Positions 18,106 to 32,797 of a DNA stretch of 64,000 nt are shown here, piece by piece. The notes beneath the pieces are model-generated. The model was not told the DNA's origin and searched no databases. It was given only the letters and a program-made list of their open reading frames with translations. Source of the stretch: Polynucleobacter sp. AP-Kolm-20A-A1 (GTDB taxonomy: Bacteria; Pseudomonadota; Gammaproteobacteria; Burkholderiales; Burkholderiaceae); the NCBI RefSeq assembly GCF_018688315.1, contig NZ_CP061315.1:434001-498000 (forward strand), written 5' to 3'. Numbering within the stretch: the first letter of the stretch is position 1; each line of letters opens with the position of its first letter. Made by a program: the position numbers and the translations under genes.

Positions 18106-18993
18106 TTAGGTGCTTTTAGTAGTGCCCAATAAAAATTGTTGCTTGATGAGTTGGGTGACGTTTTGTCGGCTGTGCTTCTTGCGTTCTAGTAAGCCCACTT
18201 TCCGGTAAATTGTTTTTCCTGATAACTCTTTAATCGATAGTTGTCGATCTTTTTCCCAGGCGATATTGGCAAGCTGCGGAACTATTGAATAGCCAAGTCC
18301 TTGTCTCACTAGCTCAATAATTGCCTCAACAGAATTAAGCTCCATACCCTCTTCAATCATTAGCTTATTAGCTTTAATTGTTTGATCAACTAAGTGTCCA
18401 GTCCACGTATTTCTCTCAAATCTAATAAAGGGTAACCGAGCATCAGCGTAGGCTGAGTTTGGCTGTCTCTTTGATTGAGGGGCTGGTGCGATCAAAATCA
18501 TCGGCTCTTTGTATAGCTCTGTCCATTGGACATTTTGAGGTAGCGCATATGGTGACTCTGTAACAATTGCCGCATCAAGGCTGCCGTCTAGGACTTGATC
18601 AAGAAAATTGCTCGATAAGCCCGCGATTAACTTTACCTCTAGACTGGGAAAGTTTTGCTTTAATTCATTCAAGGTTTTGCCGAATGCACCCATCAGGGTC
18701 GATACGAGAGCCCCTAAAACAATAGTGCCGCTGAGATCTGATTTCAGGTCCGAACCAAGAGCCTCGTAGCGAGCCACAATTTCTTGGATGGGCTCAATCA
18801 GCGATCTGCCATGTGCATTTAGGGTAAGAGAGCGCTTGGTTCGATCAAATAGCTCGAGACCAATTTCCCTTTCCAATTGCTGCAGCTGCTGGCCTGCAGC
18901 GGCTGCAGTTAAGCCAATTTCTCTGGCCGCGGATGCAACACTCTTGTGGCGGGTGATCGCTAAGAAGTTCTTGAGGGTTTTGATGCTGGACAT
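18106..18993 (-). CDS. LysR family transcriptional regulator
   Basis: The product has 295 residues. The N-terminal helix-turn-helix (NFLAITRHKSVASAAREIGL) and the following LQQLEREIGLELFDR are typical of LysR proteins, with the effector-binding domain from about residue 90. It is divergent from the dehydrogenase/hydratase operon at 19076 across 82 AT-rich bases, the classic arrangement for a LysR activator of the neighbouring operon. The inducer is probably a substrate or product of that operon and is otherwise unknown. Confidence 0.92.
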   Translation of the reverse strand: MSSIKTLKNFLAITRHKSVASAAREIGLTAAAAGQQLQQLEREIGLELFDRTKRSLTLNAHGRSLIEPIQEIVARYEALGSDLKSDLSGTIVLGALVSTLMGAFGKTLNELKQNFPSLEVKLIAGLSSNFLDQVLDGSLDAAIVTESPYALPQNVQWTELYKEPMILIAPAPQSKRQPNSAYADARLPFIRFERNTWTGHLVDQTIKANKLMIEEGMELNSVEAIIELVRQGLGYSIVPQLANIAWEKDRQLSIKELSGKTIYRKVGLLERKKHSRQNVTQLIKQQFLLGTTKST

Positions 18994-19041
18994 AATTCTA
19001 ATTATAAATAAAAACTTTATCTCAATGAAAATTTAATTCGA

Positions 19042-19076
19042 TTTATTTTTTACTATCCATCAATATAATGGGGATA
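19042..19076 (+). promoter_or_regulatory. Candidate promoter of the sdh-like/hydratase operon, leaderless
   Basis: A perfect -10 box TATAAT lies at 19064-19069. Counting its last base as -7 puts +1 on the A of the ATG at 19076, so the message would start at its own start codon. The bases before the ATG offer only GGGG two bases away, too close for a normal ribosome site. The -35 region is poor (TTTATT at 19042 with 16-base spacing), which suits activation by the divergent LysR protein. Confidence 0.5.
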
Positions 19077-19807
19077 TGTCAAATACTGATCTCAAAGTAA
19101 GGGTATGGCGCGGCTCTCAAGAAGGGGAGTTTGTTGAGTACTTGGTGCCACGCAATCCAAATCAAACAGTTTTGGATGTGGTGACCTATATCCAAAGAAA
19201 ACTCGACCCCACTTTAAGTTATCGCTTTGCGTGTCGAGTTGGCATGTGCGGATCATGCGCAATGACTGTCAATGGAGTTGCTCGCTGGACTTGTCGTACT
19301 CATGTATCTCAAATTCTTCAGGGTGATTCATTAGAGATTGCCCCCTTGAACAACTTGCCCATTATTAAAGACCTCGCAACAGACATGCGAGAGTTTTTTA
19401 ATAAGTGGAAAGGTGCCGTTGGGTTCTTTAAAGGCAATCAAACCCGCCATGATGATTTTGCTAAGGTTGAACCAAATTCTGAAGAGCGTCAGTTGGCGAA
19501 CGCAGGCATCGAGTGTATTGGTTGTGGCGTTTGTTATGCTTCTTGTGAGGTTGTAGAGTCTAGACCAAACTATCTTGGGCCTGCCGCTCTAAATCGTGCC
19601 TGGACGTTAACGAATGATGTGAGGGATATTCAGCAATTAGAGCGTATGCGTGCAGTTGCCGGTGATGCTGGTTGCCATGCCTGTCATACGCAAGGCTCCT
19701 GTACTGAGCGTTGCCCTAAGGCTATCGAGCCGACCGCAAGTATTGCAGGTTTGAAGAAGTTGGTTGCAAAGGCTGCGGTGCGCGGAAGCAAGTGGGGCAA
19801 GTTATGA
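19076..19807 (+). CDS. Succinate dehydrogenase/fumarate reductase-like iron-sulfur subunit
   Basis: The product has 243 residues. The N-terminal [2Fe-2S] ligands are in CRVGMCGSCAM with a later Cys in ARWTC, and the C-terminal domain has CIGCGVCYASC and CHACHTQGSCTERCP for the other two clusters. It passes electrons from the flavoprotein (22016) to the membrane subunits. The CYASCEVV segment lacks the Pro that usually follows the third Cys in SdhB. It is the first gene of the operon and overlaps the next one as ATGA. The gene order (Fe-S, membrane, membrane, hydratase pair, flavoprotein) matches neither sdhCDAB nor frdABCD. Direction and substrate cannot be read from this subunit. Confidence 0.88.
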   Translation: MSNTDLKVRVWRGSQEGEFVEYLVPRNPNQTVLDVVTYIQRKLDPTLSYRFACRVGMCGSCAMTVNGVARWTCRTHVSQILQGDSLEIAPLNNLPIIKDLATDMREFFNKWKGAVGFFKGNQTRHDDFAKVEPNSEERQLANAGIECIGCGVCYASCEVVESRPNYLGPAALNRAWTLTNDVRDIQQLERMRAVAGDAGCHACHTQGSCTERCPKAIEPTASIAGLKKLVAKAAVRGSKWGKL

Positions 19808-20154
19808 GTCCCGGTGTATTGCAAGCCAAGCTCTGGTATGCACAAAGAATTAGTGCCATGGTTCTCGGCCTTTGTGTGGCCATTCATTTGTTGATTATCT
19901 TTTATGCAATTAGAGGTGGTTTAAGTGCACAAGAGATTTTGGGTAGGACCCAAGGCAACGTGCTATTTGCCATCTTTTATGAAGTGTTTGTCATAGCCTG
20001 TTTTGTGCATGCGCCAATCGGCGTTGTTAATATTTTGCAAGAGACTTTTCCTAAGAGTGGTCTAGCAAGACCCCTGTCTTGGATTCTGGCTCTTCTGATT
20101 TTGGTTTTTGGCACTACTGCTGTCATTGGTGTTTTTACAGGCGGTCAGATATGA
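19804..20154 (+). CDS. Membrane anchor subunit of the SDH/FRD-like complex (first)
   Basis: The product has 116 residues with three hydrophobic helices at about 15-38, 54-77 and 88-110. His residues within helices (CVAIHLLII and CFVHAPIG) could bind haem or line the quinone site. I chose the ATG at 19804, which overlaps the stop of the Fe-S gene as ATGA; a GTG at 19792 would add four residues. It probably anchors the dehydrogenase to the inner membrane together with the next protein. Confidence 0.8.
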   Translation: MSPGVLQAKLWYAQRISAMVLGLCVAIHLLIIFYAIRGGLSAQEILGRTQGNVLFAIFYEVFVIACFVHAPIGVVNILQETFPKSGLARPLSWILALLILVFGTTAVIGVFTGGQI

Positions 20155-20510
20155 GCTCCAGACCAAAATTGGATTACCGCGCTAAAAGCCACCTGTCTTA
20201 TTTTGCATATGCGTGTCATCGAATATCCGGTTTGTTATTGGCATGCTTTATTCCATTGCACTTTCTGATGCTGTCTCAATCATTGCGAGGTGCACAAGGT
20301 TTTGAGAGATCCCTGGCCTTAACTGATTTTTGGGTCTTCAAGTTCGGAGAGTGGGCCTTAGTGATCTTGTTGGCAGTGCATTTGGCTGGGGGGATCCGCT
20401 TGTTAATGATTGAGTTTGGCCCATGGAAGGGATTGCGCAAGGGCTGGATTCAGACTTCCATCTTGTTCGCTATAGCTTGCGGACTTTTATTTTTATATTT
20501 TGCTAATTGA
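20151..20510 (+). CDS. Membrane anchor subunit, SdhC cytochrome b556 type (second)
   Basis: The product has 119 residues and three transmembrane helices. HRISGLLLACFIPLHF near residue 22 is the SdhC-type signature at the quinone site, and VHLAGGIRLL near residue 83 matches the haem-ligand helix of SdhC. The ATG at 20151 overlaps the previous stop as ATGA; a longer in-frame ORF starts at 20079 inside the previous gene, but this start fits the family. It likely carries electrons to or from quinone. Confidence 0.82.
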   Translation: MSSRPKLDYRAKSHLSYFAYACHRISGLLLACFIPLHFLMLSQSLRGAQGFERSLALTDFWVFKFGEWALVILLAVHLAGGIRLLMIEFGPWKGLRKGWIQTSILFAIACGLLFLYFAN

Positions 20511-20520
20511 TTAGGCTGAT

Positions 20521-21396
20521 ATGCAATTACAAATGAATTTAGTAGAAGAGGCTTGTAAGGAGCTCTACATTCGCGCCCTTAAAGTTCTGCCTGATGACAT
20601 TAAGGCTGGCATTAATAAATTAGATAGCGCTGAAACTGACTCGCGAGCTCAGGTGGTATTAAAGACCATGATTACCAATATCGCAGTGGCAGAACGCGAA
20701 GATAATTTGCTTTGCCAAGATACGGGCTTACCGATCTACAACGTTAAGATTGGTAGAAATGTCCAATTCGATGGCATGGAATTAAAGGCGGCTATTCGTA
20801 AGGGATGCGAGCGTGCAACTAAGGAATATCCGCTTAGATCCTCGGTGGTCCATCCGATCACTCGCAAAAATAATCACACCTCTTGTGGAATCGATATGCC
20901 TGCCATCCACATTGATTTTTTTGATGAGTCAGAATCAGTTGAGATTGAAATGGTGCCAAAGGGAAGTGGCTCTGAGAACAATTCATTTTTAAAAATGGCA
21001 ATACCTGCAGATGGCATCAAAGGTGTTAAAGCATTTGTGATTGAGAGCGTTGTCTCTGCTGGCGGCAAAACTTGCCCGCCAACCATTGTTGGAGTTGGCA
21101 TCGGAGGTACGTCAGATCAATGTGTAGCCATGGCAAAGCGTGCTGCAACCCGTGAGTTAGGAAGTGTATGCAGCGATGAAGAGGGGGCCAAGTTAGAGAA
21201 AGAGCTTAGCGCCGCCGTCAATCAACTAGGTATTGGCCCACAAGGATTGGGTGGCGATGGAACTGCTTTTGCAGTTCAAGTTGAGCTGGCTCACACTCAC
21301 ATTACTTTGAACCCGGTTGCAGTCAATATGCAGTGTCACTCCGCTCGCAGAGCGCGTGCAACATTTACGCCTACCGGCGTGACTTACGGATTCTAG
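20521..21396 (+). CDS. Class I hydratase alpha subunit (fumarase/L-tartrate dehydratase type)
   Basis: The product has 291 residues and is the catalytic Fe-S half of two-subunit class I fumarases and tartrate dehydratases. Visible motifs are LLCQDTGLP near residue 60, the HTSCGIDMPAIHID loop, KGSGSENNS and GGKTCPPTIVGVGIGG; the Cys in these are the expected [4Fe-4S] ligands. It adds or removes water on a C4 dicarboxylate double bond. Fumarase and TtdA cannot be separated by eye. Placement within a dehydrogenase operon suggests it acts on that enzyme's alkene product or supplies its alkene substrate. Confidence 0.85.
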   Translation: MQLQMNLVEEACKELYIRALKVLPDDIKAGINKLDSAETDSRAQVVLKTMITNIAVAEREDNLLCQDTGLPIYNVKIGRNVQFDGMELKAAIRKGCERATKEYPLRSSVVHPITRKNNHTSCGIDMPAIHIDFFDESESVEIEMVPKGSGSENNSFLKMAIPADGIKGVKAFVIESVVSAGGKTCPPTIVGVGIGGTSDQCVAMAKRAATRELGSVCSDEEGAKLEKELSAAVNQLGIGPQGLGGDGTAFAVQVELAHTHITLNPVAVNMQCHSARRARATFTPTGVTYGF

Positions 21397-21407
21397 GAAG
21401 GCGACAG

Positions 21408-22019
21408 ATGGCACATTACAACCTTGCTACACCGGTAAGCGAAGAAGATATCCGCAAGCTCCGTATTAACGATACCGTGACTTTGCAAAATACATTGTTT
21501 GGCATTCGTGATGCAACTCAGATTCATATGTTTGACCATGATCGTAAAACGCGATTTGATTTGAATGGTCACGCAGTCATTCATACAGCTCCGAATGTTC
21601 GTAAGGTTCCGGTAAGCAAAGAGTTCCCTGCAGGATATGAGCCTATTTGCATTGGCACGACTACCTCAGACCGCATGGAGAGATTCACTCGTCCTTTGAT
21701 GACTCAAAACGGTGTGCGCATGATTGTAGGTAAGGGTGGTATGCGTGAGGGATCTGCTGAGGCTTTTAAGGAGTTGGGTGGCGTATACCTAGCGATTATT
21801 GGCGGCACTGCAGCGCTTGAGACCACCTGGATAGAACAGATTGAAGATGTGGATATGGATGATCTCAATCCAGAATCTTTATGGCGCTTCAAGATTAAAG
21901 ATTTTGGCCCATTGTTGGTGGCAATGGATAGTCATGGCGGGAGTATCTATCAAGAAGTGAAGAGCGATGTTGCTAGTAAAAAAGAAGCGGTACTAAAAAG
22001 CCTTGGGATTACCTCATGA
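21408..22019 (+). CDS. Class I hydratase beta subunit (fumarase/L-tartrate dehydratase type)
   Basis: The product has 203 residues from the ATG at 21408, which has GGAAGG upstream; a 25-residue longer in-frame ORF starts inside the alpha gene but lacks support. It matches the C-terminal domain of FumA and TtdB, with PVSEEDIRKLRINDTVTL at the start and GTTTSDRMERF and VGKGGMREGS in the middle. It pairs with the alpha subunit, 11 bases upstream, and overlaps the flavoprotein start as ATGA. Confidence 0.85.
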   Translation: MAHYNLATPVSEEDIRKLRINDTVTLQNTLFGIRDATQIHMFDHDRKTRFDLNGHAVIHTAPNVRKVPVSKEFPAGYEPICIGTTTSDRMERFTRPLMTQNGVRMIVGKGGMREGSAEAFKELGGVYLAIIGGTAALETTWIEQIEDVDMDDLNPESLWRFKIKDFGPLLVAMDSHGGSIYQEVKSDVASKKEAVLKSLGITS

Positions 22020-23737
22020 ATGCGATTCCAACAATAAATACTGATATTTTGATTCTGGGCTCAGGGGGTGCAGGCCTCTTTGCTGCCTTGCATGCACATC
22101 AAGCTAATCCTGACTTAAATATCACGATAGCAGTCAAAGGCTTGTTAGGTAAGTGCGGCTGTACGCGAATGGTGCAGGGAGGTTACAACGTAGCTTTGGC
22201 AGAAGGCGATTCTGTCGAGCGCCATTTCATGGATACGATTGAGGGTGGCAAATGGCTATCTGATCAGGATCTAGCATGGACGCTAGTGAGTAAGGCGGTA
22301 GAGCGTATCCATGAATTAGAAAATGAGCTCGGATGCTTTTTCGATCGCAACCCCGATGGCACTGTTCATCAAAAAGCATTTGCTGGCCAAACGTTTGACC
22401 GCACAGTTCACAAAGGTGACTTAACAGGTATTGAGATTATTAATCGTCTCGCCGAACAAGTGTGGTCTCGCGGGATTAATCGTCTTGAAGAGCATCGCGC
22501 GATAGAGTTGATTCATAGCAAGGATGGTAAATCGCTTGCAGGTGTATTGATGCTCAATATGCAAACAGGTGCATTTGTATTGGTGCGCGCTAAGGCGGTG
22601 TTGCTGGCAACTGGCGGTGGCCCAACAATGTACAAATACCACACACCGTCCGGCGATAAGAGTTGCGATGGTTTGGCCATGGCATTACGTGCAGGCCTGA
22701 CTTTGCGTGACATGGAGATGGTGCAATTTCATCCTACTGGCTTATTGGCTGGCCCTGGCACGCGTATGACAGGTACGGTTCTAGAGGAAGGTCTGCGAGG
22801 CGCGGGCGGATATTTGCTGAATGGCAATAAAGAGCGTTTTATGGGCAACTATGATCCACGTAATGAGCGCGCCACCAGAGATATTGTTTCCCGATCAATT
22901 AACTCAGAAATTCGTGCTGGGCGTGCTACGCCAAATGGCGGTGTTTACATTCAAATGAGTCATTTAGGTCCAGATAATGTGCGTAAACAATTTAAAGGCA
23001 TGGTTGAACGTTGTGCTGATAGTGGATTTGATCTTGCTAATGATTTGGTAGAGGTTGTACCAACTGCGCATTACATGATGGGTGGTCTCGTCTTCAAGAA
23101 AGACTGCAGCACTGACCTTCCGGGGCTCTTTGCCGCTGGCGAAGATACGGGCGGAGTCCACGGCGCTAATCGCTTGGGTGGTAATGGTGTTGCTAATTCA
23201 ACAGTATTTGGTGGTATTGCTGGGGAGGCAATGGCTCATTGGGTTTCCTCTCAGAAGTTAAGCGACTGTAATATGGATGAGGTCGAAGCTAGCATTGAGG
23301 CGCATGAGGCGCCATTGAAAAAAGCAGCCGGTGATATTGAAGCAATCCGCGACGCACTTGCCGAATGCATGTGGGATGACGTTGGCATTTCGAGAACAAA
23401 AGATTGTTTATTGCGTGCACGTCAAACTTTAAAGCAGTTGGCGGCCCAACTAAAGCAAATGGGCGTGGGCGATATACAGCGGGAATACAGCAATACTTGG
23501 CAAGATTGGATGAATTTACAAAACCTGATTTTGGTGAGCCAGGCTGTCACTGAAGCAGCCATTGCCAGGGAGAACTCTAGAGGCGCCCACTATCGTGATG
23601 ATTTTCCCGAACCAGGATCTTTTGAGAATTCCTTTTACACAGCCGTAAACTTTAAGCATCAAGAGCTGAAGATAGAAAATCGCCCGGTGCAATTTACGAT
23701 GATTAAGCCGGGTGAAACGATTTTGGTTGAGGCCTAA
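22016..23737 (+). CDS. SDH/FRD-like flavoprotein lacking the covalent-FAD histidine
   Basis: The product has 573 residues. The N-terminal Rossmann motif (LILGSGGAGLFAAL) binds FAD. Active-site residues of succinate dehydrogenase/fumarate reductase are present: His239 (QFHPTG), Glu258, Arg288 (RDIVSRS), His352 (TAHYMMGG) and Arg386 (HGANRLGGN). The position that carries the FAD-linking His in E. coli SdhA and FrdA (SHT...GG) is Cys49 here (GCTRMVQGG), so FAD is probably not covalently bound through His. Work on E. coli FrdA showed that replacing this His keeps fumarate reduction but abolishes succinate oxidation. The enzyme may therefore work reductively or on another dicarboxylate. It is the last of six overlapping or closely spaced genes. 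Confidence 0.85.
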   Translation: MNAIPTINTDILILGSGGAGLFAALHAHQANPDLNITIAVKGLLGKCGCTRMVQGGYNVALAEGDSVERHFMDTIEGGKWLSDQDLAWTLVSKAVERIHELENELGCFFDRNPDGTVHQKAFAGQTFDRTVHKGDLTGIEIINRLAEQVWSRGINRLEEHRAIELIHSKDGKSLAGVLMLNMQTGAFVLVRAKAVLLATGGGPTMYKYHTPSGDKSCDGLAMALRAGLTLRDMEMVQFHPTGLLAGPGTRMTGTVLEEGLRGAGGYLLNGNKERFMGNYDPRNERATRDIVSRSINSEIRAGRATPNGGVYIQMSHLGPDNVRKQFKGMVERCADSGFDLANDLVEVVPTAHYMMGGLVFKKDCSTDLPGLFAAGEDTGGVHGANRLGGNGVANSTVFGGIAGEAMAHWVSSQKLSDCNMDEVEASIEAHEAPLKKAAGDIEAIRDALAECMWDDVGISRTKDCLLRARQTLKQLAAQLKQMGVGDIQREYSNTWQDWMNLQNLILVSQAVTEAAIARENSRGAHYRDDFPEPGSFENSFYTAVNFKHQELKIENRPVQFTMIKPGETILVEA

Positions 23738-23772
23738 TTATTTTTGATCTGATAGACCCCATTCATTTTTTA

Positions 23773-24489
23773 TTGGCGACGTTAGTTATTTTTGTTGCTT
23801 ATTTTATTTTTGGTATCTCTGGATTTGGGTCATCGATCATTTCTGTACCATTACTGGTCCAGATGTATCCACTGAAATCGGTGGTCCCAATGATGGTCAT
23901 TATTGACATCTGCGCCTCTTTATACGTCGGTAGAAAATCTTCTCAAGACGCCAACCTCAAAGAGCTCAAATGGCTATTTCCATTTAGCCTGATTGGCATG
24001 ATTCTAGGCATTTATCTCTTGGTGAAGGCGCCAAGTGAACCGCTTTTAATTACTCTAGGCTGCTTTGCTGCACTCAATGGCGCTCGCGTCCTTTGGCAGA
24101 GAAATTCAGAAATGCACGAGCCAATTAATAAATGGTGGGCGGCGCCATTTGGATTTTTTGGTGGCACCTTTACCGCCTTATTTGCTACTGGTGGGCCGAT
24201 CTATGTGTCCTACTTAGGTCTGCGAATAAATGATCCCAGGGCATTGCGTGCCACTATGGCATTTGCAATATTTATGCTGACTTTTTTGCGGCTGACCTTG
24301 ATGTTAGTTACCGGTTTGATTCTGAGTTGGCCCGTTGTTGGCTTAGCAATTTGTTTAATGCCAGCAACCTTTTTAGGAATTTGGCTAGGCACTCATGTTC
24401 ATACTAAATTAAGTAATGCCGCCATGAGGGTGGCTTATGGATCAATTCTAATTTTTGCTGGAACGATGCTGTTGATTCGTCAGCTTTAA
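23773..24489 (+). CDS. Sulfite/sulfonate exporter, TauE/SafE family
   Basis: The product has about 238 residues with 7-8 predicted helices, beginning FGISGFGSSIISVPLL, and a second-half repeat (PFGFFGGTFTALFATGGPIYVSY) typical of TauE/SafE carriers. These export sulfite or sulfoacetate, or take up organosulfonates. The start is uncertain: TTG at 23773 is the first usual start, yet the frame is open and hydrophobic back to the ATT codons at the preceding stop (23737), so a rarer start (ATT or CTG 23749) is possible. It follows the flavoprotein by about 35 bases and ends at a strong terminator. This links the dehydrogenase operon with sulfur metabolism. Confidence 0.85.
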   Translation: MATLVIFVAYFIFGISGFGSSIISVPLLVQMYPLKSVVPMMVIIDICASLYVGRKSSQDANLKELKWLFPFSLIGMILGIYLLVKAPSEPLLITLGCFAALNGARVLWQRNSEMHEPINKWWAAPFGFFGGTFTALFATGGPIYVSYLGLRINDPRALRATMAFAIFMLTFLRLTLMLVTGLILSWPVVGLAICLMPATFLGIWLGTHVHTKLSNAAMRVAYGSILIFAGTMLLIRQL

Positions 24490-24491
24490 AA

Positions 24492-24519
24492 AAATGGGCG
24501 AAGATATCTTCGCCCATTT
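24492..24519. terminator. Bidirectional terminator between the tauE and Bug genes
   Basis: A perfect 14-bp-arm palindrome (AAATGGGCGAAGAT and its complement) has A and T runs on its flanks. It separates the plus-strand dehydrogenase operon from the convergent minus-strand Bug gene and can stop transcription from both sides. Confidence 0.9.
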
Positions 24520-24536
24520 CATTAAGTAAGGTATTT

Positions 24537-25523
24537 CTACTGGGCGCTAATATTTCTACCCTTAATTACCTTCTCCCAAAGAACAGACTCAGTCTTTACT
24601 TGGGATTCAAATTCTTTCTGATTATTGACCACAGCTGTTAGACCATTTAAATCTAAGCTGGTTCGTAATGCTTCAGAATTCACGGCTTTAACAGTGGCCG
24701 CATAAATTTTATCGGTGATAACTTTAGGTGTATTTGCTGGAGCAACTAATCCAAACCAGCCAGTGGATTCGAATCCTGGAATGCCTGATTCAGCAACAGT
24801 AGGGACGTCAGGTAATTGTTTAGAGCGCTTCAAGCTGGTGACTGCCAATGGTTTAATTTGACCAGACTTCGCAAAACCTGTCGCTGCTGTAAGGTTGCCC
24901 ACCATAAAGTCAATCTGACCAGCAACTAGATCATTCAGTGCTGCAGATTCACCTTTATAAGGAACGTGCGTAGCTGGAATGCCCGCTGTATAGGTAAAGT
25001 TTTCCTCGGCCATATGAACCTGGCTGCCAATACCAGCTGAGCCAAAGTTCAGATCTTTGGTTTTGGCGTAGGCAATAAACTCAGCGACATTCTTCACGGG
25101 AATCTTATTGCTAACTGACAAGAGCATCGGTCCACTCGCTACGTTGGTAATGTAGACAAAGTCCTTGGCATAATTTACAGGAAGCTTTTTATAGAGATTT
25201 GGGTTGACCGTAAGCATGCTTCCAGAGGCGAGCATGATGATGTAGCCATCAGCTGGTGACTGTGCAACATATTCCGCAGCGATATTGCCGCCAGCACCGG
25301 GCTTATTTTCAACGATGACATTTTGACCGAGGTCTTTGGTTAATTGCTGCGCTAATAAACGCCCAAGAATGTCGGTAGTGCCTCCAGCGGCAAATGGAAT
25401 AATTAGTTTGATAGGTTTTGTTGGCCAGTTTTGTGCATTCGCCAAGGGTGAGGCTAGTAGTACTAGTGAACCTACAGTCAGTAGAATTTTCTTTCCTAGA
25501 TTGCTGATATGTTGCTTAAACAT
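24537..25523 (-). CDS. Bug/TctC family solute-binding protein
   Basis: The product has 328 residues with a Sec signal peptide ending at about SPLANAQNWP. The mature start WPTKPIKLIIPFAAGGTTDILGR is the hallmark of Bordetella uptake gene (TctC) proteins, periplasmic binders for carboxylates in tripartite tricarboxylate transporters. No TctA or TctB gene is in the window, so it is an orphan as far as visible. In Chromohalobacter the sulfolactate locus includes such a transporter (SlcHFG), so sulfolactate or a related sulfonate is a reasonable ligand. It is divergent from slcC across about 200 bases. Confidence 0.9.
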   Translation of the reverse strand: MFKQHISNLGKKILLTVGSLVLLASPLANAQNWPTKPIKLIIPFAAGGTTDILGRLLAQQLTKDLGQNVIVENKPGAGGNIAAEYVAQSPADGYIIMLASGSMLTVNPNLYKKLPVNYAKDFVYITNVASGPMLLSVSNKIPVKNVAEFIAYAKTKDLNFGSAGIGSQVHMAEENFTYTAGIPATHVPYKGESAALNDLVAGQIDFMVGNLTAATGFAKSGQIKPLAVTSLKRSKQLPDVPTVAESGIPGFESTGWFGLVAPANTPKVITDKIYAATVKAVNSEALRTSLDLNGLTAVVNNQKEFESQVKTESVLWEKVIKGRNISAQ

Positions 25524-25544
25524 GCTTACTATCTCCGATGGTAA

Positions 25545-25558: not shown

Positions 25559-25690
25559 CTTATCTGCATTTGCATCTAAAAAATCCTGCGATCTCTATTT
25601 ATTAGTTATAAGCTTATGTGTTGCTAGTGTCTCCTCCAGCCATTGTTTATGCAATTTAATTCATAATTGCGCCGCACAATAATTGGGGTA

Positions 25691-25727
25691 TTGCAAGATA
25701 TCTAAATCATCTATATGATCTAGATAT
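25691..25727 (+). promoter_or_regulatory. Promoter with embedded palindromic operator, leaderless start of the slcC-suy operon
   Basis: TTGCAA at 25691-25696 and TATGAT at 25714-25719 are separated by 17 bases and form a good sigma-70 promoter. Its expected +1 is the A of the ATG at 25726, so the transcript would be leaderless, and indeed no ribosome site is visible. A palindrome with 13-base arms (25698-25710 and 25715-25727, 4-base spacer, 12 of 13 pairs) covers the spacer, the -10 box and +1. Such placement fits repression, most simply by the GntR protein encoded at 29204. Confidence 0.65.
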
Positions 25728-26655
25728 GTCATCTATTTTGATCTCTGAGTTCATTACAAGTCAAGCCCTGGAAACCCTGCGTTCTAAACATGCAGTGGTT
25801 TATGAGCCAGAGCTATATAAAGACCGCCCAGCTCTAATTGCTGCATTGCAAAAAATGGAGGGGCTAATTGTTCGCAACCTTACTCAGGTGAATGAGGAGA
25901 TTTTGGTTGGCGCGCCTCATTTGAAAGTGGTTGGCCGGCTTGGCGTTGGTCTAGAGAATATCGAATTGCCTGCATGCGCCAAGCGCAATATCAAAGTGAT
26001 TCCTGCAACAGGTGCAAATGCTGAGTCTGTTGCTGAGTATGTAGTCGGCGCTGCCGTTGCATTAACAAGGGGATTCATTCCCGCGACGATTTCAACTTTG
26101 AAGGGCGAGTGGCCTCGCCCACGTTTTTCTAGTTACCATGAATTTTTGGGTAAGACTATTGGAATCGTTGGTTTCGGAAGCATTGGTAGAGTGGTAGCAA
26201 AAAAGGCTCATGCATTTGGTTTGCAGTGCCTTGCCTATGACCCAATGCTCTCTGGCGACTCTGTCGAGCTTGATGGGTTTTCTGTTCCCTTGCTCCCATT
26301 GAATGATCTGCTTGCAAAAAGCGATGCGGTTACTTTGCACCTTCCATTTTTGCCAGAAACTAAGAACTTATTTAACGCTTCAACTCTCGATCAAATGAAG
26401 TCCGGTGCATGCCTGGTTAATACTGCGCGTGGCGGGATCGTTGATGAGGTTGCGCTTGTAGAGCGTTTGCGCTCGGGACGTCTGGGTGGGGCGGCGATTG
26501 ATGTTTTTCAGAGTGAGCCCGCCAAAGACCTAAACCACTTTGCTGGAATTGAGAATCTTATTCTTACTCCGCACGTAGCGGGTGTGACCCACGAAAGTAA
26601 TGAGCGTGTTAGTCAAATGATTGCTGATGAAGTTAATCGGTTTTTAGGAGCATAA
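25726..26655 (+). CDS. slcC: D-2-hydroxyacid dehydrogenase, likely (S)-sulfolactate dehydrogenase SlcC
   Basis: The product has 309 residues. The NAD-binding fold is shown by VGFGSIGRVVAKKA near residue 149, followed by the catalytic set: Arg in VNTARGGIVDE, Glu in FQSEPAKDL and His in LTPHVAGVTHES. The family (PGDH-like) is certain. The assignment to sulfolactate rests on the SuyAB genes two and three positions downstream: in Chromohalobacter SlcC oxidises (S)-sulfolactate to sulfopyruvate beside suyAB. It is the first gene of the operon, one base before the next start. Confidence 0.8.
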   Translation: MSSILISEFITSQALETLRSKHAVVYEPELYKDRPALIAALQKMEGLIVRNLTQVNEEILVGAPHLKVVGRLGVGLENIELPACAKRNIKVIPATGANAESVAEYVVGAAVALTRGFIPATISTLKGEWPRPRFSSYHEFLGKTIGIVGFGSIGRVVAKKAHAFGLQCLAYDPMLSGDSVELDGFSVPLLPLNDLLAKSDAVTLHLPFLPETKNLFNASTLDQMKSGACLVNTARGGIVDEVALVERLRSGRLGGAAIDVFQSEPAKDLNHFAGIENLILTPHVAGVTHESNERVSQMIADEVNRFLGA

Positions 26656-26656
26656 A

Positions 26657-27664
26657 GTGAACTTGTCTTATCAAAAGATGGTTGAGTTAGCTTCATCTGG
26701 GTTACAGGCAGCCGGAATCGGAGAGAAAGCCGCTTATGAGACTGCCCAATTTTTAGCATTAGCTGAGCTCGATGGGTTGGCCTCGCACGGATTGGCGCGT
26801 GTCTCTCAATACGCTGGGCATGCCAAAAATGGCCGCATAGAGTTATCGCCAAAATTTAAGGTGCGGCCTTTTAAAACATCTGCTGCATTGGTTGATGCAT
26901 GTGATGGATTGGCATTTCCAGCGCTGCGATTTGCAACTGATCTATCAGTGAACTTGGCCTCTAAGACTGGCGTAGGTCTTGTCGCTGTTACAAACAGTCA
27001 TCATTTTGGAGTGGCGGGGCATTTTGCTGAAGCAGCAGCACGTGCAGGATATATTTCTTTGCTGTTTGGTAATACGCCTGCAGCAATGCCAATGGTCGGA
27101 GGTAGCAAAGCACTATTTGGTACCAATCCACTGGCTGCAGCATTTCCAGTTGCTAAGCGCGACCCATTAGTTATTGATATGTCGCTCTCAGCAGTTGCTA
27201 GGGGCAAGTTACTGGTTGCCGCTAAAAAAGGTGAATCTATTCCAGAGGGGTGGGCATTAACTGCTGAGGGCAAACCCACTACTGATCCAAACGAAGGGCT
27301 TAAGGGCCTAATGGTCCCGCTTGGCGGTGATAAGGGTGCTTTGCTTGCCTTGATTATTGAGTTATTGGTGGTTGGCCTATCGGGAAGCCGGTTCTCTTAT
27401 GAGGCGGATTCTTTTTTTGATGCCAAGGGTAATCGCCCGCGCATCGGTCAGCTCTTATTAACAATTGATCCAGGCTTAGCGGGTAGTCAAGTATTTGCAA
27501 ACAAGATGCAAGAGTTTTTGAAGACCTTGGCATCCGATTCGGGAACTCGAGTTCCAGGGCAAAGACGTTTTAAACAGCGTGCATCAGGCTTTAAAGAAGG
27601 CGTCAACGTTTCTGATGTGGTTGTAGAAGAAATTCGGACTGGCATCCGCCAGTTGTGGAGTTAG
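26657..27664 (+). CDS. comC: Ldh/malate dehydrogenase family oxidoreductase, likely sulfopyruvate reductase ComC
   Basis: The product has 335 residues of the NAD(P)-dependent Ldh family (malate/L-sulfolactate/ureidoglycolate dehydrogenases), with the conserved VTNSHHFGVAGHF carrying the catalytic His near residue 117 and FGTNPLAAAFP. The GTG start at 26657 has AGGAG upstream. In sulfolactate degraders ComC reduces sulfopyruvate to (R)-sulfolactate, so that with SlcC both isomers feed SuyAB. The context supports this role; malate or another hydroxyacid remains possible. Confidence 0.78.
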   Translation: MNLSYQKMVELASSGLQAAGIGEKAAYETAQFLALAELDGLASHGLARVSQYAGHAKNGRIELSPKFKVRPFKTSAALVDACDGLAFPALRFATDLSVNLASKTGVGLVAVTNSHHFGVAGHFAEAAARAGYISLLFGNTPAAMPMVGGSKALFGTNPLAAAFPVAKRDPLVIDMSLSAVARGKLLVAAKKGESIPEGWALTAEGKPTTDPNEGLKGLMVPLGGDKGALLALIIELLVVGLSGSRFSYEADSFFDAKGNRPRIGQLLLTIDPGLAGSQVFANKMQEFLKTLASDSGTRVPGQRRFKQRASGFKEGVNVSDVVVEEIRTGIRQLWS

Positions 27665-27699
27665 TAGTCAAAAAAAACAGGATTAAAGAGGAGAAGATA

Positions 27700-27981
27700 A
27701 TGATCCATTTTGTCGTGCATGAGCCAGGAGATGGCGTTGGTGTGGTGGTAGTTGAAGGTGTAAAAGCTGGAGACGATTTGATTGGTTGGGTAATGGACGG
27801 AGATTTAACCCTCAATATGAAGTCTGAGAGTGATATTCCAATTGGCCACAAAATTTCTTTGAATGAATTTAAGCCAGGCGATACCGTGATGAAGTATGGC
27901 GTTGATATTGGCAAAGTAGTTGCTCCCATCAAAAAAGGTGAGCATCTACACGTTCAGAACGTTAAAACTAAGCGCTGGTAA
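27700..27981 (+). CDS. suyA: (R)-sulfolactate sulfo-lyase, small subunit
   Basis: The product has 93 residues from the ATG at 27700, which has AAAGAGGAGAAG upstream; a longer in-frame ORF begins at 27655 but lacks that support. It is the SAF-like N-terminal domain of the UxaA/altronate dehydratase family, and as a separate small gene directly before the large UxaA-type subunit it matches SuyA. With SuyB it removes sulfite from sulfolactate and leaves pyruvate. Altronate or another sugar acid is an alternative by family alone, but the exporters and sulfite dehydrogenase downstream favour a sulfonate. Confidence 0.82.
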   Translation: MIHFVVHEPGDGVGVVVVEGVKAGDDLIGWVMDGDLTLNMKSESDIPIGHKISLNEFKPGDTVMKYGVDIGKVVAPIKKGEHLHVQNVKTKRW

Positions 27982-28020
27982 TCCAAGCCCTTATCTACAC
28001 ATTCATTGAGAAAGAAAAAA

Positions 28021-29193
28021 ATGATTAATTTGAAAGACGCAACCTTTATGGGTTACCGCCGTGAGAACGGCCGCATGGGTATTCGTAACCACGTGCTTAT
28101 TCTGCCTTTGGATGACCTATCTAATGCCGCTTGTGAAGCTGTAGCAAACAATATCAAAGGAACTCAGGCTATTCCTCATTCCTACGGTCGTTTGCAGTTC
28201 GGTGCGGACTTGGATCTGCACTTCCGTACCTTAATTGGTACTGGCTCAAACCCAAACGTTGCTGCTGTAGTGGTAATCGGCATTGAGCCGCAGTGGACAA
28301 AAATTGTGGTTGATGGCATTAAAGCCTCTGGTAAACCTGTAGAGGGTTTCTGGATTGAGGGTAACGGAGATACAGCTACGATTGCTTCCGCTAGTAAAGC
28401 TGCTTATAAGATGATGAAACATGCATCCAAGCAGCAACGTGTTAAAGCTCCATTATCTGAGTTATGGGTATCCACTAAATGTGGTGAGTCTGATACAACA
28501 TCTGGTTGCGGCGCTAACCCAACCGTTGGTGATGCATTTGACAAGCTCTACGGCATTGGCTCTACCTTGGTATTCGGCGAGACCACTGAGTTAACTGGTG
28601 GTGAGCATTTGGTTGAAGCCCGTTGCCGCACTCCAGAGGTGAAGAAAAAGTTCCGCGAAATGTTTGATCGCTATCAGGATGTTATTGAGCGCCATAAAAC
28701 AAGCGACTTATCTGACTCACAGCCAACCAAAGGCAATATTGCTGGTGGTTTGACTACGATTGAAGAAAAAGCCTTGGGCAATATTCAGAAAATCGGTAAG
28801 AAATGTATCGTTGATAGCGTTTTGGATAAGGGCGAAGAGCCAAAAATCCCAGGTTTGCACTTTATGGACTCCTCTTCAGCTGCTGCTGAGATGGTGACCT
28901 TATGTGCTGCTGCTGGATTTGCTGCTCATTTCTTCCCAACAGGTCAGGGTAACGTGATTGGTAATGCAATTCTTCCTGTGATTAAGATCTGCGCTAATCC
29001 AAAAACAGTTCGCACAATGGGTGAGCATATCGACGTTGATGTGTCAGGTCTTTTGCGTCGCGAAGAGAATATGGATGATGCTGGCAATAAGTTATTGGAG
29101 TGCCTATTGCGTACTGCCGATGGTGAATTAACTGCATCCGAGATTCTCGGTCATCGTGAATTCGTATTAACTCGTTTATACGAATCAGCGTAA
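28021..29193 (+). CDS. suyB: (R)-sulfolactate sulfo-lyase, large subunit
   Basis: The product has 390 residues from the ATG at 28021. It belongs to the UxaA dehydratase family: [19 protein letters not shown] opens the domain, and conserved Cys lie in VSTKCGESD and TSGCGANP, where the family binds its metal. The separate suyA/suyB organisation and the flanking sulfite-handling genes support sulfo-lyase activity, which yields pyruvate and sulfite. It probably forms a heteromer with SuyA in the cytoplasm. The GntR gene follows after 10 bases. Confidence 0.85.
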
Positions 29194-29203
29194 GTTTTAA
29201 AGC

Positions 29204-29923
29204 ATGAAGTCCCTGACCGCTTATCAAGAAGTAAAGCAAAAGATCACCGAAGATCTGGTCAGGGGCCGCTATCCTATGGGGCAGGCGTTGCCTGCTGAAA
29301 AGGATTTATCAAAAGAATTAGATGTATCTATAGGAACCCTGCGTAAAGCGGTGGATGAATTGGTTGCTGAAGGTATTGTGGTTCGTCGCCAAGGCAGGGG
29401 TACCTATGTTGCTGAGCATGATCTTAAGCGTTTGTTGTATTACTTTTTTCACGTTGTAAAGCATGATGCTGATAAAAAGACCAACCCAAGGGTTGAGCTC
29501 GTCTCTTTAACAAGTGCTGTTGCAACCAAAGAGGAAGCAAACAAGCTTCAAATTAAAGAAGGTGCAGCTGTTTGGCGTCTGGTTAACTGCCTTTATCTTG
29601 AGGATAAATGCGTCATGATCGACCAGATTACATTGGATAAAAAACGTTTTCAAAAACTCACGCGAGCTGATTACATTAATCGTGAGGGAAGTATCTATCA
29701 GTTGTATCAAATGAAATATGGTCAGACTGTTGTTCGTAGTAGCGAACGATTAAGAGCAGGGCTTGTAAGTAAGCAGCATGCCGAGTGGCTTGGTATGAAG
29801 GCGGACTCACCAGTTTTGATTATCCGAAGGATTGCGTTAGGAATTCAGGATGAGCCCCTAGAATGGCGCGTTTCTACCCTGAACACCGAGCATCACGAAT
29901 ACTTTAGTGAATTAGTGGTCTAG
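29204..29923 (+). CDS. GntR family regulator (HutC/UTRA type)
   Basis: The product has 239 residues. The N-terminal winged helix (LPAEKDLSKELDVSIGTLRKAVDEL, then GIVVRRQGRGTYV) is followed by a UTRA ligand-binding domain from about residue 95 to 235. It lies inside the sulfolactate operon and is the best candidate to bind the palindrome at 25698-25727. The ligand is presumably sulfolactate or sulfopyruvate. Regulators in other suy loci belong to various families, so this cannot be named by analogy. Confidence 0.88.
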   Translation: MKSLTAYQEVKQKITEDLVRGRYPMGQALPAEKDLSKELDVSIGTLRKAVDELVAEGIVVRRQGRGTYVAEHDLKRLLYYFFHVVKHDADKKTNPRVELVSLTSAVATKEEANKLQIKEGAAVWRLVNCLYLEDKCVMIDQITLDKKRFQKLTRADYINREGSIYQLYQMKYGQTVVRSSERLRAGLVSKQHAEWLGMKADSPVLIIRRIALGIQDEPLEWRVSTLNTEHHEYFSELVV

Positions 29924-29928
29924 CGTTT

Positions 29929-30921
29929 ATGTACAACACCAGCAAGCGCAATTTACCTGGGCTATTAGTTTGCTTGGTGATTGCTATGTCCACCAGCTTT
30001 CTTTCTGAGAATTATGGCGGACCCCAACTTTTGTATGCTTTGTTATTGGGTTTATCACTCCATTTTCTTTATCTTAATGAGACTGTAAAACCAGGTATAG
30101 ACTTTTGCGCAAAGACAATTCTTCGCCTGGGCGTTGCGTTTTTGGGTATACGAATCACCTTTGCTGATATTGGTGCAATTGGTCTTAATACTGGTTTGAT
30201 GGTGATGATGGCGGTTGCTTCAACTGTTTGCTTGGGCTTTTTGTTGGCAAAGATTTTAAAGTTATCTCCAGATTTTGGGTTGATAGCAGGTGGTTCGGTT
30301 GGTATATGCGGCGCGTCTGCCGCTCTTGCTGTAGCCTCGGTATTGCCAAAGTCAAAAGAAAATGAGCAATTTACTTTGCTAGTTGTAGTGGGTGTCACCG
30401 TACTGTCGACGATTGCAATGGTGACCTATCCTTTTGCATTGCAGATGCTGAACATTGGATCTCTTTCAGCGGGAATTTTTATAGGCGCCACCATCCATGA
30501 CGTAGCTCAAGTGGTTGCAGCAGGTATGCTGTTTGGCCCAGAGGCGGGCGATGTTGCTACCGTAGTCAAGTTATTTAGGGTGGCCCTTCTGCTCCCCGTG
30601 GTGCTAGTAATCTCCATTTTCTTTGGTGCACAAAAAAATACCAATCAATTGGGATGGGCTAGCTTACGATTGATCCCAACTTTTCTACTAGGCTTTGTCG
30701 CGCTTTCTATTGTGGCTTCCATGCAAATTTTGCCTACCTCTATAACTCACCAAATTGGTGGATTATCGCGCTGGATGCTGGTGATTGCTATTGCGGCGGC
30801 AGGATTAAAAACGAATTTCCAGGAGTTGGCTAAACTTGGTTGGCAGCCGGTGCTGATGTTAGTAGTTGAAACCCTATTCATTGCTATTTTTGGGCTCGTA
30901 TTTATTTTGTACGCATCCTAG
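29929..30921 (+). CDS. YeiH family putative sulfate/sulfite exporter
   Basis: The product has 330 residues with about 10 hydrophobic helices. The central GGSVGICGASAALAVASVLP and IGATIHDVAQVVAAG segments are hallmarks of the YeiH/UPF0324 family. Members recur beside sulfonate-cleaving enzymes and are thought to export sulfite or sulfate, though biochemical proof is thin. It starts 5 bases after the GntR gene. Together with TauE (23773) the locus has two unrelated candidate exporters. Confidence 0.85.
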   Translation: MYNTSKRNLPGLLVCLVIAMSTSFLSENYGGPQLLYALLLGLSLHFLYLNETVKPGIDFCAKTILRLGVAFLGIRITFADIGAIGLNTGLMVMMAVASTVCLGFLLAKILKLSPDFGLIAGGSVGICGASAALAVASVLPKSKENEQFTLLVVVGVTVLSTIAMVTYPFALQMLNIGSLSAGIFIGATIHDVAQVVAAGMLFGPEAGDVATVVKLFRVALLLPVVLVISIFFGAQKNTNQLGWASLRLIPTFLLGFVALSIVASMQILPTSITHQIGGLSRWMLVIAIAAAGLKTNFQELAKLGWQPVLMLVVETLFIAIFGLVFILYAS

Positions 30922-31011
30922 ATTGAAAAGAATTAGCATTTCTTTGTGCATTAGCTGTATGCTTTAAAAAAATATAAGCCAATCAGCTCGTATAACGGAG
31001 GCAAAGCATTT

Positions 31012-32271
31012 ATGTCTAAGAAAGATGTATTTTCTAATCGCCGGCAATTCTTAAAATCATCTGTTGTTGCGGGCGCTAGTGTAGGCAGCGTCATGAGCGC
31101 CTCTTCTGTTAACGCTCAAATTCAAGAGGGTGGTTTTTTAGAGGTTGACCCTTGGACCAAAACCCAAGGATCTACCTTTGTTAATCCACCTTATGGTTTG
31201 CCGTCAAAATATGAAAAGAATGTGGTGCGACTGCTTCCTTCGCCAGCGCCAACCTTTCTAACGGGATCACGCACTCCTCTGCAGAGTTTGCATGGGATCA
31301 TTACTCCAAACGGTCTAGTCTTTGAGCGCCACCATGCAGGAGTTCCAGATATTAACCCTGATCTCCATAAGCTAGTCATTCATGGAATGGTTGATCGTCC
31401 AATGATTTTTACCATGGATGATATTGTTCGTTTTCCATCTGAATCCAGAATTTATTTTCTTGAGTGTTCTGGTAATAGTGCGGCCGAGCTTAAAAAGGCG
31501 AGCAATCAAACTGTTCAGCAAATTCATGGATTGGTGTCTTGCTGTGAGTGGACGGGTGTGCGTTTATCCACAATTTTGCAAGAATGTGGCGTGCAATCTG
31601 TGGCTAAGTGGGCTTTGGCTGAGGGGGCTGATGGCGCAGCGATGACTCGCAGCATTCCAATGAATAAGATGATGGATGATGCCTTGCTGGTTTACGCTCA
31701 AAATGGTGAGATGTTGCGCGCTGAGCAGGGCTATCCTTTGAGATTATTTTTGCCTGGCTATGAAGGCAATATGAGTATTAAGTGGCTGCGCAGAATTAAG
31801 TTGGGTACCGAGCCTTGGCAAACCCGCGAAGAGACCTCTGCTTATACCGATTTGCGGTCAGATGGTAAGGCGCTGCAATTTACTTTTGCAATGGAGGTTA
31901 AATCTGTAATTACTCAGCCTTCAGGGATGATGAAACTTAAATCCAAAGGTTTTTATGAGATCTCTGGTTTTGCATGGTCAGGAAATGGAAAAATACGCCG
32001 TGTTGAAGTTTCAACTGATGGCGGAAAATCGTGGGGAGAGGCAGTGCTGCAAGAGCCGGTGATGGATAAATCTCTAGTGCGGTTCCGTTTTCCTTGGGTG
32101 TGGGATGGTGCGCCAGCAACATTGATGAGTAGAGCAATTGATTCAAGCGGTGAGATGCAGCCTACGATGGATGCTGTTATCAAGGCTAAGAGTGTCAACA
32201 CTTTCTACCACAATAACGCCATACAACCATGGCGCGTTGCAGCCAATGGGGAGGTTACCAATGGTCGCTAA
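31012..32271 (+). CDS. Sulfite dehydrogenase, molybdopterin subunit (SorA/SoxC family)
   Basis: The product has 419 residues. A twin-arginine signal (SNRRQFLKSSVVAGASVG) sends the folded protein to the periplasm. The molybdenum-ligating Cys is in YFLECSGNS near residue 151, and HGLVSCCEWTGV is typical of SoxC. The C-terminal Mo-cofactor dimerisation domain carries the VEVSTDGGKSWGEA motif. It oxidises sulfite to sulfate, or acts like SoxC. No other sox gene is present, which supports stand-alone sulfite oxidation of SuyAB's product. It is preceded by a 90-base gap with a ggagg ribosome site, so it may have its own promoter. Confidence 0.88.
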   Translation: MSKKDVFSNRRQFLKSSVVAGASVGSVMSASSVNAQIQEGGFLEVDPWTKTQGSTFVNPPYGLPSKYEKNVVRLLPSPAPTFLTGSRTPLQSLHGIITPNGLVFERHHAGVPDINPDLHKLVIHGMVDRPMIFTMDDIVRFPSESRIYFLECSGNSAAELKKASNQTVQQIHGLVSCCEWTGVRLSTILQECGVQSVAKWALAEGADGAAMTRSIPMNKMMDDALLVYAQNGEMLRAEQGYPLRLFLPGYEGNMSIKWLRRIKLGTEPWQTREETSAYTDLRSDGKALQFTFAMEVKSVITQPSGMMKLKSKGFYEISGFAWSGNGKIRRVEVSTDGGKSWGEAVLQEPVMDKSLVRFRFPWVWDGAPATLMSRAIDSSGEMQPTMDAVIKAKSVNTFYHNNAIQPWRVAANGEVTNGR

Positions 32272-32797
32272 GAAATTCATTAAGCTGGGCGTTTCTTTGA
32301 TCTCTATCGGCATTGTTCTTGGTTGCGCTAACGGTAATCGAGTAACCGGTCCAGTTGGCCTGGGTAAGCCAATTTCTGAAAATCAAATTCGAGCATGGAA
32401 TATTGACGTTGGTCCAAGTGGGGCAGGCCTTCCGCCTGGCTCAGGAACGGCAATCGTTGGAGAAAAGTTATATCAGCAGCAGTGCTCATCTTGTCATGGA
32501 GATCAAGGGCAGGGCGGACCTGCTAATCGCCTGGTAGGCGGGGGCTCACTGAATACGGATAAGCCTGTCAAGACTGTCGGAAGTTTTTGGCCTTATTCAA
32601 CCACTATCTTTGACTACATCAAGAGAGCGATGCCACATCAAGCGCCACAATCTTTAACTGACGACCAAGTGTATGCAGCTACCGCTTATATTCTTTATCT
32701 CAATAAGATCATTGCAAAGGATGCGGTGATGGATGCAAAGACCTTGCCTTTAGTAAAAATGCCCAATAAAGATGGCTTCATACCTATTGAGCGTTGA
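32261..32797 (+). CDS. Lipoprotein cytochrome c, electron acceptor of the sulfite dehydrogenase
   Basis: The product has 178 residues from the ATG at 32261, which has GGGGAGG upstream and overlaps the previous gene by 11 bases. A signal peptide ends in the lipobox IVLGC, so the protein is probably membrane-tethered. One haem site CSSCH lies near residue 74 and the likely axial Met is in RAMPHQAPQSL. The pairing with the molybdoenzyme mirrors SorAB and SoxCD: electrons from sulfite go to this cytochrome and then to the terminal oxidase. Confidence 0.86.
   Translation: MVAKKFIKLGVSLISIGIVLGCANGNRVTGPVGLGKPISENQIRAWNIDVGPSGAGLPPGSGTAIVGEKLYQQQCSSCHGDQGQGGPANRLVGGGSLNTDKPVKTVGSFWPYSTTIFDYIKRAMPHQAPQSLTDDQVYAATAYILYLNKIIAKDAVMDAKTLPLVKMPNKDGFIPIER

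Follow-up and report, generated by a model that had tools for sequence, protein, structure and literature searches.

A succinate dehydrogenase- and fumarase-like operon linked to sulfolactate degradation genes in Polynucleobacter, with 3-sulfopropionate as a possible substrate

A 64,000-nt stretch of the genome of Polynucleobacter sp. AP-Kolm-20A-A1 (GCF_018688315.1, NZ_CP061315.1, positions 434,001–498,000), referred to below as the window, contains a block of 17 genes at 18.1–32.8 kb, in which a six-gene operon resembling succinate dehydrogenase (SDH) and fumarase stands beside genes for sulfolactate degradation (Table 1). We read this block as a candidate organosulfonate module. The host genome is a single contig of 1.92 Mb, and the closest named relatives of the SdhA-like protein come from Polynucleobacter. 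The block is flanked by the isc operon (IscS to ferredoxin), which reaches position 17953, and by a reductase/DsbB/CysK/LysS stretch that begins at 33091. Its first unit opens with a LysR gene on the minus strand, followed by the genes for SdhB, SdhD, SdhC, fumarase alpha, fumarase beta, the SdhA-like protein and TauE; the six-gene operon and TauE together occupy 19076–24489. A minus-strand TctC gene separates this unit from the second one (25726–32797), which encodes in order SlcC-like and ComC-like proteins, SuyA, SuyB, GntR, a YeiH-type exporter, a SoxC-type sulfite dehydrogenase, and cytochrome c. Open reading frames (ORFs) and profile matches confirmed the genes, families, and order named in a preliminary description of this DNA, including TauE behind the dehydrogenase operon (23773–24489) and sulfite oxidation behind the sulfolactate operon (31012–32797). 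The LysR gene adjoins the operon in many relatives’ loci, and the SuyA gene adjoins SuyB here and in relatives. The best of five NCBIfam matches of the ComC-like protein was NF040650 (L-sulfolactate dehydrogenase). With the minus-strand TctC gene between them, the two units may have separate promoters, as proposed earlier; a promoter scan was uninformative, with 8 sites against a mean of 23.9 in shuffled sequence.

Table 1. Genes of the 18.1–32.8 kb block, in window coordinates.
Feature	Position	Strand	Profile matches and remarks
LysR-family regulator, divergent from the dehydrogenase operon	18106..18993	-	PF00126 + PF03466
SdhB-like Fe-S subunit	19076..19807	+	PF13085, PF13183; TIGR00384 188.5 bits (cut-off 88)
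SdhD-like membrane anchor	19792..20154 (ATG 19804 likely)	+	PF01127; TIGR02968 31.0 bits (below cut-off 41.8)
SdhC-like cytochrome b subunit	~20151..20510 (mechanical ORF from 20079)	+	PF01127; TIGR02970 61.2 bits (cut-off 52.3)
Class I (Fe-S) fumarase-type hydratase alpha; proposed sulfoacrylate hydratase	20521..21396	+	PF05681 304.5 bits; CQDTG kept
Class I fumarase-type hydratase beta	~21408..22019 (mechanical ORF from 21333)	+	PF05683; RDAAH changed to RDATQ
SdhA-like flavoprotein; proposed 3-sulfopropionate:quinone dehydrogenase	22016..23737	+	PF00890 + PF02910
TauE/SafE anion exporter	23773..24489	+	PF01925
TctC/Bug periplasmic binding receptor	24537..25523	-	PF03401
SlcC-like D-2-hydroxyacid dehydrogenase	25726..26655	+	PF02826, PF00389
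ComC-like Ldh_2 sulfolactate dehydrogenase	26657..27664	+	PF02615; NF040650 222 bits (below cut-off 500)
SuyA, sulfolactate sulfo-lyase small subunit	27655..27981 (ATG 27700 likely)	+	Weak TIGR03248 N-terminal match; no Pfam match
SuyB, sulfolactate sulfo-lyase large subunit	28006..29193	+	PF04295 + PF20629
GntR/UTRA regulator	29204..29923	+	PF00392, PF07702
YeiH-type putative sulfate exporter	29929..30921	+	PF03601; TIGR00698 154 bits (below cut-off 232.6)
SoxC-type molybdenum sulfite dehydrogenase	31012..32271	+	TIGR04555 616.9 bits (over curated cut-off 420)
Cytochrome c, probable sulfite dehydrogenase partner	~32246..32797 (mechanical ORF from 32138)	+	PF13442, PF00034

The co-occurrence of the two units was surveyed in 399 genomes of the host’s order, identified as Burkholderiales by the names of relatives. 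SdhA-like calls in this order had 64–100% identity (E ≤ 1e-150); SuyB was called at 60% identity or more, which dropped five genomes at only 34–41% (77 to 72) and kept fragment matches. The SdhA-like protein was found in 51 genomes and SuyB in 72. SuyB was present in 50 of the 51 SdhA-like-positive genomes versus 22 of the 348 negative ones, and at the genus level in 24/24 positive versus 7/134 negative genera. A dehydrogenase operon found mostly without suyAB had been named beforehand as an outcome that would speak against a connection; one genome in 51 (G211) carried it that way, and 22 carried SuyB without it. In this order SuyB is often found alone, but the operon hardly ever lacks SuyB, an asymmetry expected of an upstream feeder into sulfolactate. 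Beyond the genus tally, these genome counts ignore kinship, and the SdhA tree shows gene transfer between lineages (16 loci were omitted from the tree by name as short, near-duplicate or interrupted, and rows with stops or fewer than 480 residues were dropped). The two genes lay at most 25 kb apart on one contig in 40 of the 51 genomes (median 8.1 kb); in one they were far apart on one contig, and the other 10 had them on different contigs or had no SuyB. Of 22 further genomes, taken from the 80 named loci described below and 19 of them picked for having no nearby SuyB, 19 contained SuyB (≥60%); at least one of this set, G409, duplicates G228 of the order survey.

Seven Polynucleobacter genomes were compared at the slot between ferredoxin and reductase, where four held both units and three held none of the 17 genes. 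The stretch compared for G369 extends no further than YeiH; in two island-positive genomes, extra DNA lies between ferredoxin and LysR. A second survey took in 367 genomes from the class to which G419 belongs (Alphaproteobacteria, going by the locus name); its centre, G419, was known to be positive beforehand and is one of the 29 positives included by choice. The SdhA-like protein was found in 29 genomes, SuyB in 30, and both in 17, so that SuyB accompanied 17/29 positive versus 13/338 negative genomes (odds ratio 35). The linkage of the two units is far beyond chance. Co-occurrence, neighbourhood, and joint presence or absence in Polynucleobacter all uphold the earlier proposal of one linked organosulfonate system.

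Two gene orders were distinguished: SdhB-D-C-(TctC)-FumA-FumB-SdhA, the order of the window (type I), and SdhB-D-C-SdhA-FumA-FumB (type II). The identity cut-offs for operon types and marker genes were our own, and marker genes were located by tblastn. Among 80 named loci, 74 were of type I, and 43 of these were flanked, with 8 kb or more to either side. Near the flanked type I loci we found SuyB (31 loci), ComC-like (31), TauE (26), TctC (23), and SlcC (21) genes. Genes for TauE, exporters, sulfite oxidation or SuyAB were also mostly adjacent in plasmid loci, which came from Methylobacterium, Paracoccus, Sulfitobacter, Pseudomonas, strain NT-25, and haloarchaea. These neighbourhoods and the co-occurrence support the idea, also put forward earlier, that the SDH-like enzyme and the fumarase-like hydratase would feed the sulfolactate set.

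The dehydrogenase has the make-up of complex II (succinate:quinone and quinol:fumarate reductases), with a flavoprotein of the same fold, a two-domain Fe-S subunit (2Fe-2S and 4Fe-4S dicluster), and two cytochrome b-type anchors, and the conserved His, Glu, and Arg positions are kept in comparison with FrdA and with the SDH-type and NadB-type proteins of the host. It differs from complex II in the SdhA-like protein, which is 30–33% identical to Escherichia coli FrdA chains, has a longer loop with Arg/Lys250, carries Lys133 in place of Ala (30/30 in the family alignment), and lacks the FAD-linking His before T-x-x-x-QGG, where Cys49 precedes T50. Cys49 occurs in 240/240 near homologs and 30/30 aligned family sequences. 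The same holds for Glu257, which stands where SDH-type and NadB-type proteins have Thr; the Thr before the conserved Glu is an active-site residue in SDH and fumarate reductase. As part of the speculative picture given further below, Cys49 rather than His might bind the flavin, which would be new for complex II to our knowledge. An SDH-type flavoprotein elsewhere in the host genome has the His motif and 35% identity to the SdhA-like protein; it is termed SDH from this motif. An AlphaFold model had a mean predicted local distance difference test score of 73 with active-site segments below 50, and no residue-level argument was drawn from it.

The SdhA-like protein matched 35 NCBIfam models; of these 25 were listed, and it failed to reach the cut-off of any of the 25. 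The best was TfrA, a fumarate reductase, at 537 bits against a cut-off of 718. Besides falling below this cut-off, the enzyme differs from the thiol:fumarate reductase TfrAB in having membrane anchors and a 243-amino-acid Fe-S subunit that covers only positions 4–219 of the 488-position TfrB model. In public databases, SdhA-like proteins mostly go by the names “FAD-binding protein”, “L-aspartate oxidase” or “fumarate reductase flavoprotein subunit”, which masks the sulfonate link.

We propose that the SdhA-like protein acts on 3-sulfopropionate, which is succinate with one carboxylate exchanged for sulfonate. The SdhABCD-like enzyme would convert 3-sulfopropionate to sulfoacrylate, and its Fe-S and cytochrome b subunits would relay the electrons to quinone. 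The reverse direction, from sulfolactate through sulfoacrylate to 3-sulfopropionate as an electron sink, would suit the TfrA match and the missing His-FAD link, as in enzymes fitted for reduction. We consider it very improbable, as complete sulfolactate and sulfite oxidation genes adjoin in the window, the cytochrome b anchors are of the Sdh type, and the hosts belong mainly to aerobic genera.

The hydratase shares with class I fumarase and with the two-subunit L-tartrate dehydratase the PF05681 and PF05683 domains and the CQDTG, Arg, Thr-x3-Arg, and Lys positions that have roles in class I fumarases. It differs from both in its partner, a sulfonate-linked dehydrogenase, and in the RDxAH motif of the beta part, which was lost in 82/82 readable type I loci (89 examined) and replaced by RDATQ, RDATL, RDATY and similar, never with His. 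The host genome’s other class I fumarase-type protein (34% identity) keeps RDAAH. The FumAB-like hydratase would add water to sulfoacrylate to give 3-sulfolactate; a hydration that retains the L-configuration of fumarase would yield (R)-sulfolactate, as the Cahn–Ingold–Prelog priorities swap.

Duplication of an ordinary SDH/fumarase pair was rejected in view of the co-occurrence, the motifs, and the separate SDH-type and fumarase-type genes of the host. More broadly, it is highly unlikely that an ordinary extra SDH/fumarase or a tartrate/mesaconate module lies beside the sulfonate genes by chance, given invariant family substitutions and an association with SuyB that is both genome-wide and local in two bacterial groups and extends to two haloarchaeal plasmids.

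The 18.1–32.8 kb block would be an organosulfonate module feeding sulfolactate (probability about 0.85), and the chances that 3-sulfopropionate is its substrate are roughly even. We infer the substrates, the reactions of the first two steps, their stereochemistry, and the direction. Counterparts of all four genes of the SlcC-ComC-SuyAB pathway of the Chromohalobacter and Paracoccus type, with a putative ComC among them, are present together with sulfite handling; the difference is that here an SDH/fumarase-like pair, which would supply the substrate, stands in front of them. SlcC and ComC would interconvert the sulfolactate isomers, and SuyAB, which reportedly uses (R)-sulfolactate according to the accessible text of PMC12421959, would cleave this isomer to pyruvate and sulfite. 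Sulfite dehydrogenase and cytochrome c would then oxidise the sulfite, or the TauE- or YeiH-type proteins would export it. Because succinate, fumarate, and malate parallel 3-sulfopropionate, sulfoacrylate, and sulfolactate, no step has to be added before SlcC, ComC, and SuyAB.

The same three compounds have been described for Roseovarius nubinhibens ISM in a Konstanz thesis cited in PMC11489063; the accessible text gives compounds only and names no genes. Apart from that thesis, the same text states that there was no earlier report of bacterial degradation of 3-sulfopropionate, and that Bilophila wadsworthia respires it as an electron acceptor by an unknown route. Both the fermentation of sulfoquinovose and 2,3-dihydroxypropane-1-sulfonate (DHPS) and the use of homotaurine are described as yielding 3-sulfopropionate as an end product (PMC11489063 and PMC5320631). 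In Paracoccus wurundjeri on a sulfosugar, a cluster for “fumarate and tartrate metabolism” with a TauE homolog was upregulated together with SlcC, ComC, and SuyAB, and its authors propose a Krebs-cycle link (PMC12421959, available text). This induced cluster is likely the operon described here. In Paracoccus versutus the operon adjoins a TauE gene, and the SdhA-like protein of P. onubensis is 90% identical to that of P. versutus. Neither R. nubinhibens nor P. wurundjeri was named among the 120 SdhA-like matches listed, many of which are nameless. A literature search, in the text its sources made available, found no gene named for 3-sulfopropionate dehydrogenation or sulfoacrylate hydration. 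Aldehyde dehydrogenase neighbours were rejected as evidence for 3-sulfopropionate, because GabD-like genes were near only 1/43 flanked type I and 2/9 plasmid type II loci.

The preliminary description had favoured sulfosuccinate, which would pass through sulfofumarate to hydroxysulfosuccinate and then, by oxidation and decarboxylation, to sulfopyruvate for SlcC, ComC, and SuyAB. The same enzyme classes would serve this route, and dicarboxylate-type transporters (TctC, DctA-like) are nearby. In addition, many relatives that have no SlcC close by carry an Ldh_2 gene (40–46% identity to ComC) after the operon. Its product could oxidise hydroxysulfosuccinate, and the resulting beta-keto compound would, by our reckoning of the chemistry, lose CO2 unaided. 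On the other side, the window has no dedicated enzyme for the oxidative decarboxylation, as had been noted at the outset, and the literature search found neither sulfosuccinate with sulfofumarate nor sulfosuccinate catabolism. Sulfosuccinate is probably not the likeliest substrate and appears unlikely: it needs an extra oxidation and decarboxylation, one step more than the 3-sulfopropionate route, which has no missing step. This preference for 3-sulfopropionate is a matter of parsimony and not proof.

In loci L065, L082, L084, L085, L087, L091, L094, L098, L099, L101, L106, L107, L123, and L125, the first marker to follow the SdhA-like gene, directly or beyond a TctC gene, is the second Ldh_2 gene (40–45% identity to the ComC of the window); genes outside the marker set may intervene.

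The type II operons allow a further alternative. Their FumAB proteins are only 24–38% identical to those of the window, and C[AG]DTG and REGxY motifs occur in 30/30. Among the 29 positives in the class of G419, SuyB was found in 7/8 type I genomes, 9/19 type II genomes, and 1/2 genomes without a nearby FumAB marker. Such a hydratase could place the hydroxyl group on the sulfonate-bearing carbon, and the alpha-hydroxysulfonate, a bisulfite adduct, would release sulfite and leave malonate semialdehyde if the starting compound is 3-sulfopropionate, or oxaloacetate if it is sulfosuccinate. Quick et al. are said to have described direct desulphonation of sulphosuccinate in 1994. Direct desulfonation would be most plausible for type II, where the FumAB proteins are distinct and 10/19 genomes of this class had no SuyB; 6 of the 12 SuyB-less positives also had no Xsc. 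In Pseudomonas MPC6, a malonate-semialdehyde-type dehydrogenase gene closes the type II operon, and a gene for sulfite oxidase lies nearby. Nevertheless, we regard direct desulfonation as improbable: the near-obligate SuyB would be pointless for type I, the type of the window, the difference in SuyB between type I and type II was not significant (7/8 vs 9/19, p 0.09), and a malonate-semialdehyde-type dehydrogenase was near only 2/9 plasmid type II loci and 0/10 flanked type II loci of the L159–L192 set.

Xsc was considered for the release of sulfite where SuyB is absent, by a profile search of 45 genomes (the 29 positives and 16 others); it was over the cut-off in 6 of the 12 and not in the other 6, which gave no clear answer. 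An Amidohydro_2-family protein lies behind the type II operons L044, L045, L189, and L190 (Pfam checked for L044), and an FAA_hydrolase protein behind L169; both families include decarboxylases. In L038, L040, L041, and L049, a NIPSNAP protein is a repeated neighbour of the type II operon and of the YeiH-type exporter.

SdhA and SdhB were paired with SuyAB and TauE in 2/2 haloarchaeal plasmid loci (L042, L047). At the place of FumAB, these plasmids carry an ArgH-like lyase (L042, 10215–11717, minus strand; L047, 8284–9786, minus strand), which scored 323 bits on the argH model vs 599 bits for the ArgH of the window genome. The enzyme XcbC makes sulfoacrylate, according to the available text of PMC8727900; kinship of the ArgH-like protein with XcbC (260.4 and 256.9 bits vs 222.6 for the ArgH of the genome itself) was only suggestive and is not relied on. 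A wider picture can be drawn in which a “sulfo-Krebs” arm, a complex II and fumarase pair evolved for 3-sulfopropionate and sulfoacrylate, exists in Proteobacteria and in haloarchaea, with the ArgH-like lyase for fumarase, and has a distant Rhodococcus relative; type I would yield sulfolactate for SuyAB, type II would have a C-S-breaking hydratase that releases sulfite via the bisulfite adduct, and the flavin would possibly sit on Cys49. As a whole, this picture is speculative and rather unlikely.

Several observations weigh against 3-sulfopropionate oxidation through sulfolactate. In the class of G419, 12/29 SdhA-like-positive genomes had no SuyB at 60% identity. None of the SuyB, SlcC, YeiH, Sor or TauE genes was near 10/17 flanked loci of the L159–L192 set, 6/46 flanked loci of the 80-locus set, and 2/13 plasmid loci (Rhodococcus L046, Sulfitobacter L048). 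YeiH-type and sulfite dehydrogenase genes were each near only 3/43 flanked type I loci, which makes the ending of the block in the window atypical. Two recurrent neighbours do not fit the simple scheme: the second Ldh_2 enzyme, and a thiamine pyrophosphate (TPP) enzyme that was near 20/43 flanked type I loci and in the islands of 3/3 other island-positive Polynucleobacter, and that the window does not have. At the active site, Glu257 in place of the Thr of SDH brings no evident gain for sulfonate binding, and loss of the covalent His-FAD link is expected to favour reduction over oxidation.

The models closest to the TPP enzyme are those of acetolactate synthase and 2-hydroxyacyl-CoA lyase, whose cut-offs it does not reach. 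One idea is that it decarboxylates a 2-oxo acid, for example 4-sulfo-2-oxobutyrate, on a route from homocysteate to 3-sulfopropionate. It lies between TauE and TctC in the three other Polynucleobacter islands (L213–L217) and in P. campilacus (L052), with about 50% identity to the Methylobacterium enzyme. Each of the three islands also contains a second TctC gene. The corresponding interval of the window (24489–24537) spans only 47 bp. A histidinol-dehydrogenase-family protein is near the operon in L110 (900–2222, minus strand; Pfam checked) and in five other loci of its cluster, and HpsN, the DHPS dehydrogenase, belongs to this family.

The operon of this freshwater bacterium is almost certainly a second copy of two Krebs-cycle steps re-tooled for a sulfur-containing acid. 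If the 3-sulfopropionate reading is true, it would name the enzymes for a degradation route that, in the sources as available, is in print only as a cited thesis, and the gene would be present in 51/399 sampled genomes of the order of the window and 29/367 of the class of G419. It would also correct the labels “L-aspartate oxidase”, “fumarate reductase flavoprotein subunit”, and “fumarate hydratase” that conceal the function, and an orphan step in the cycling of organic sulfur would become directly testable in cultured strains.

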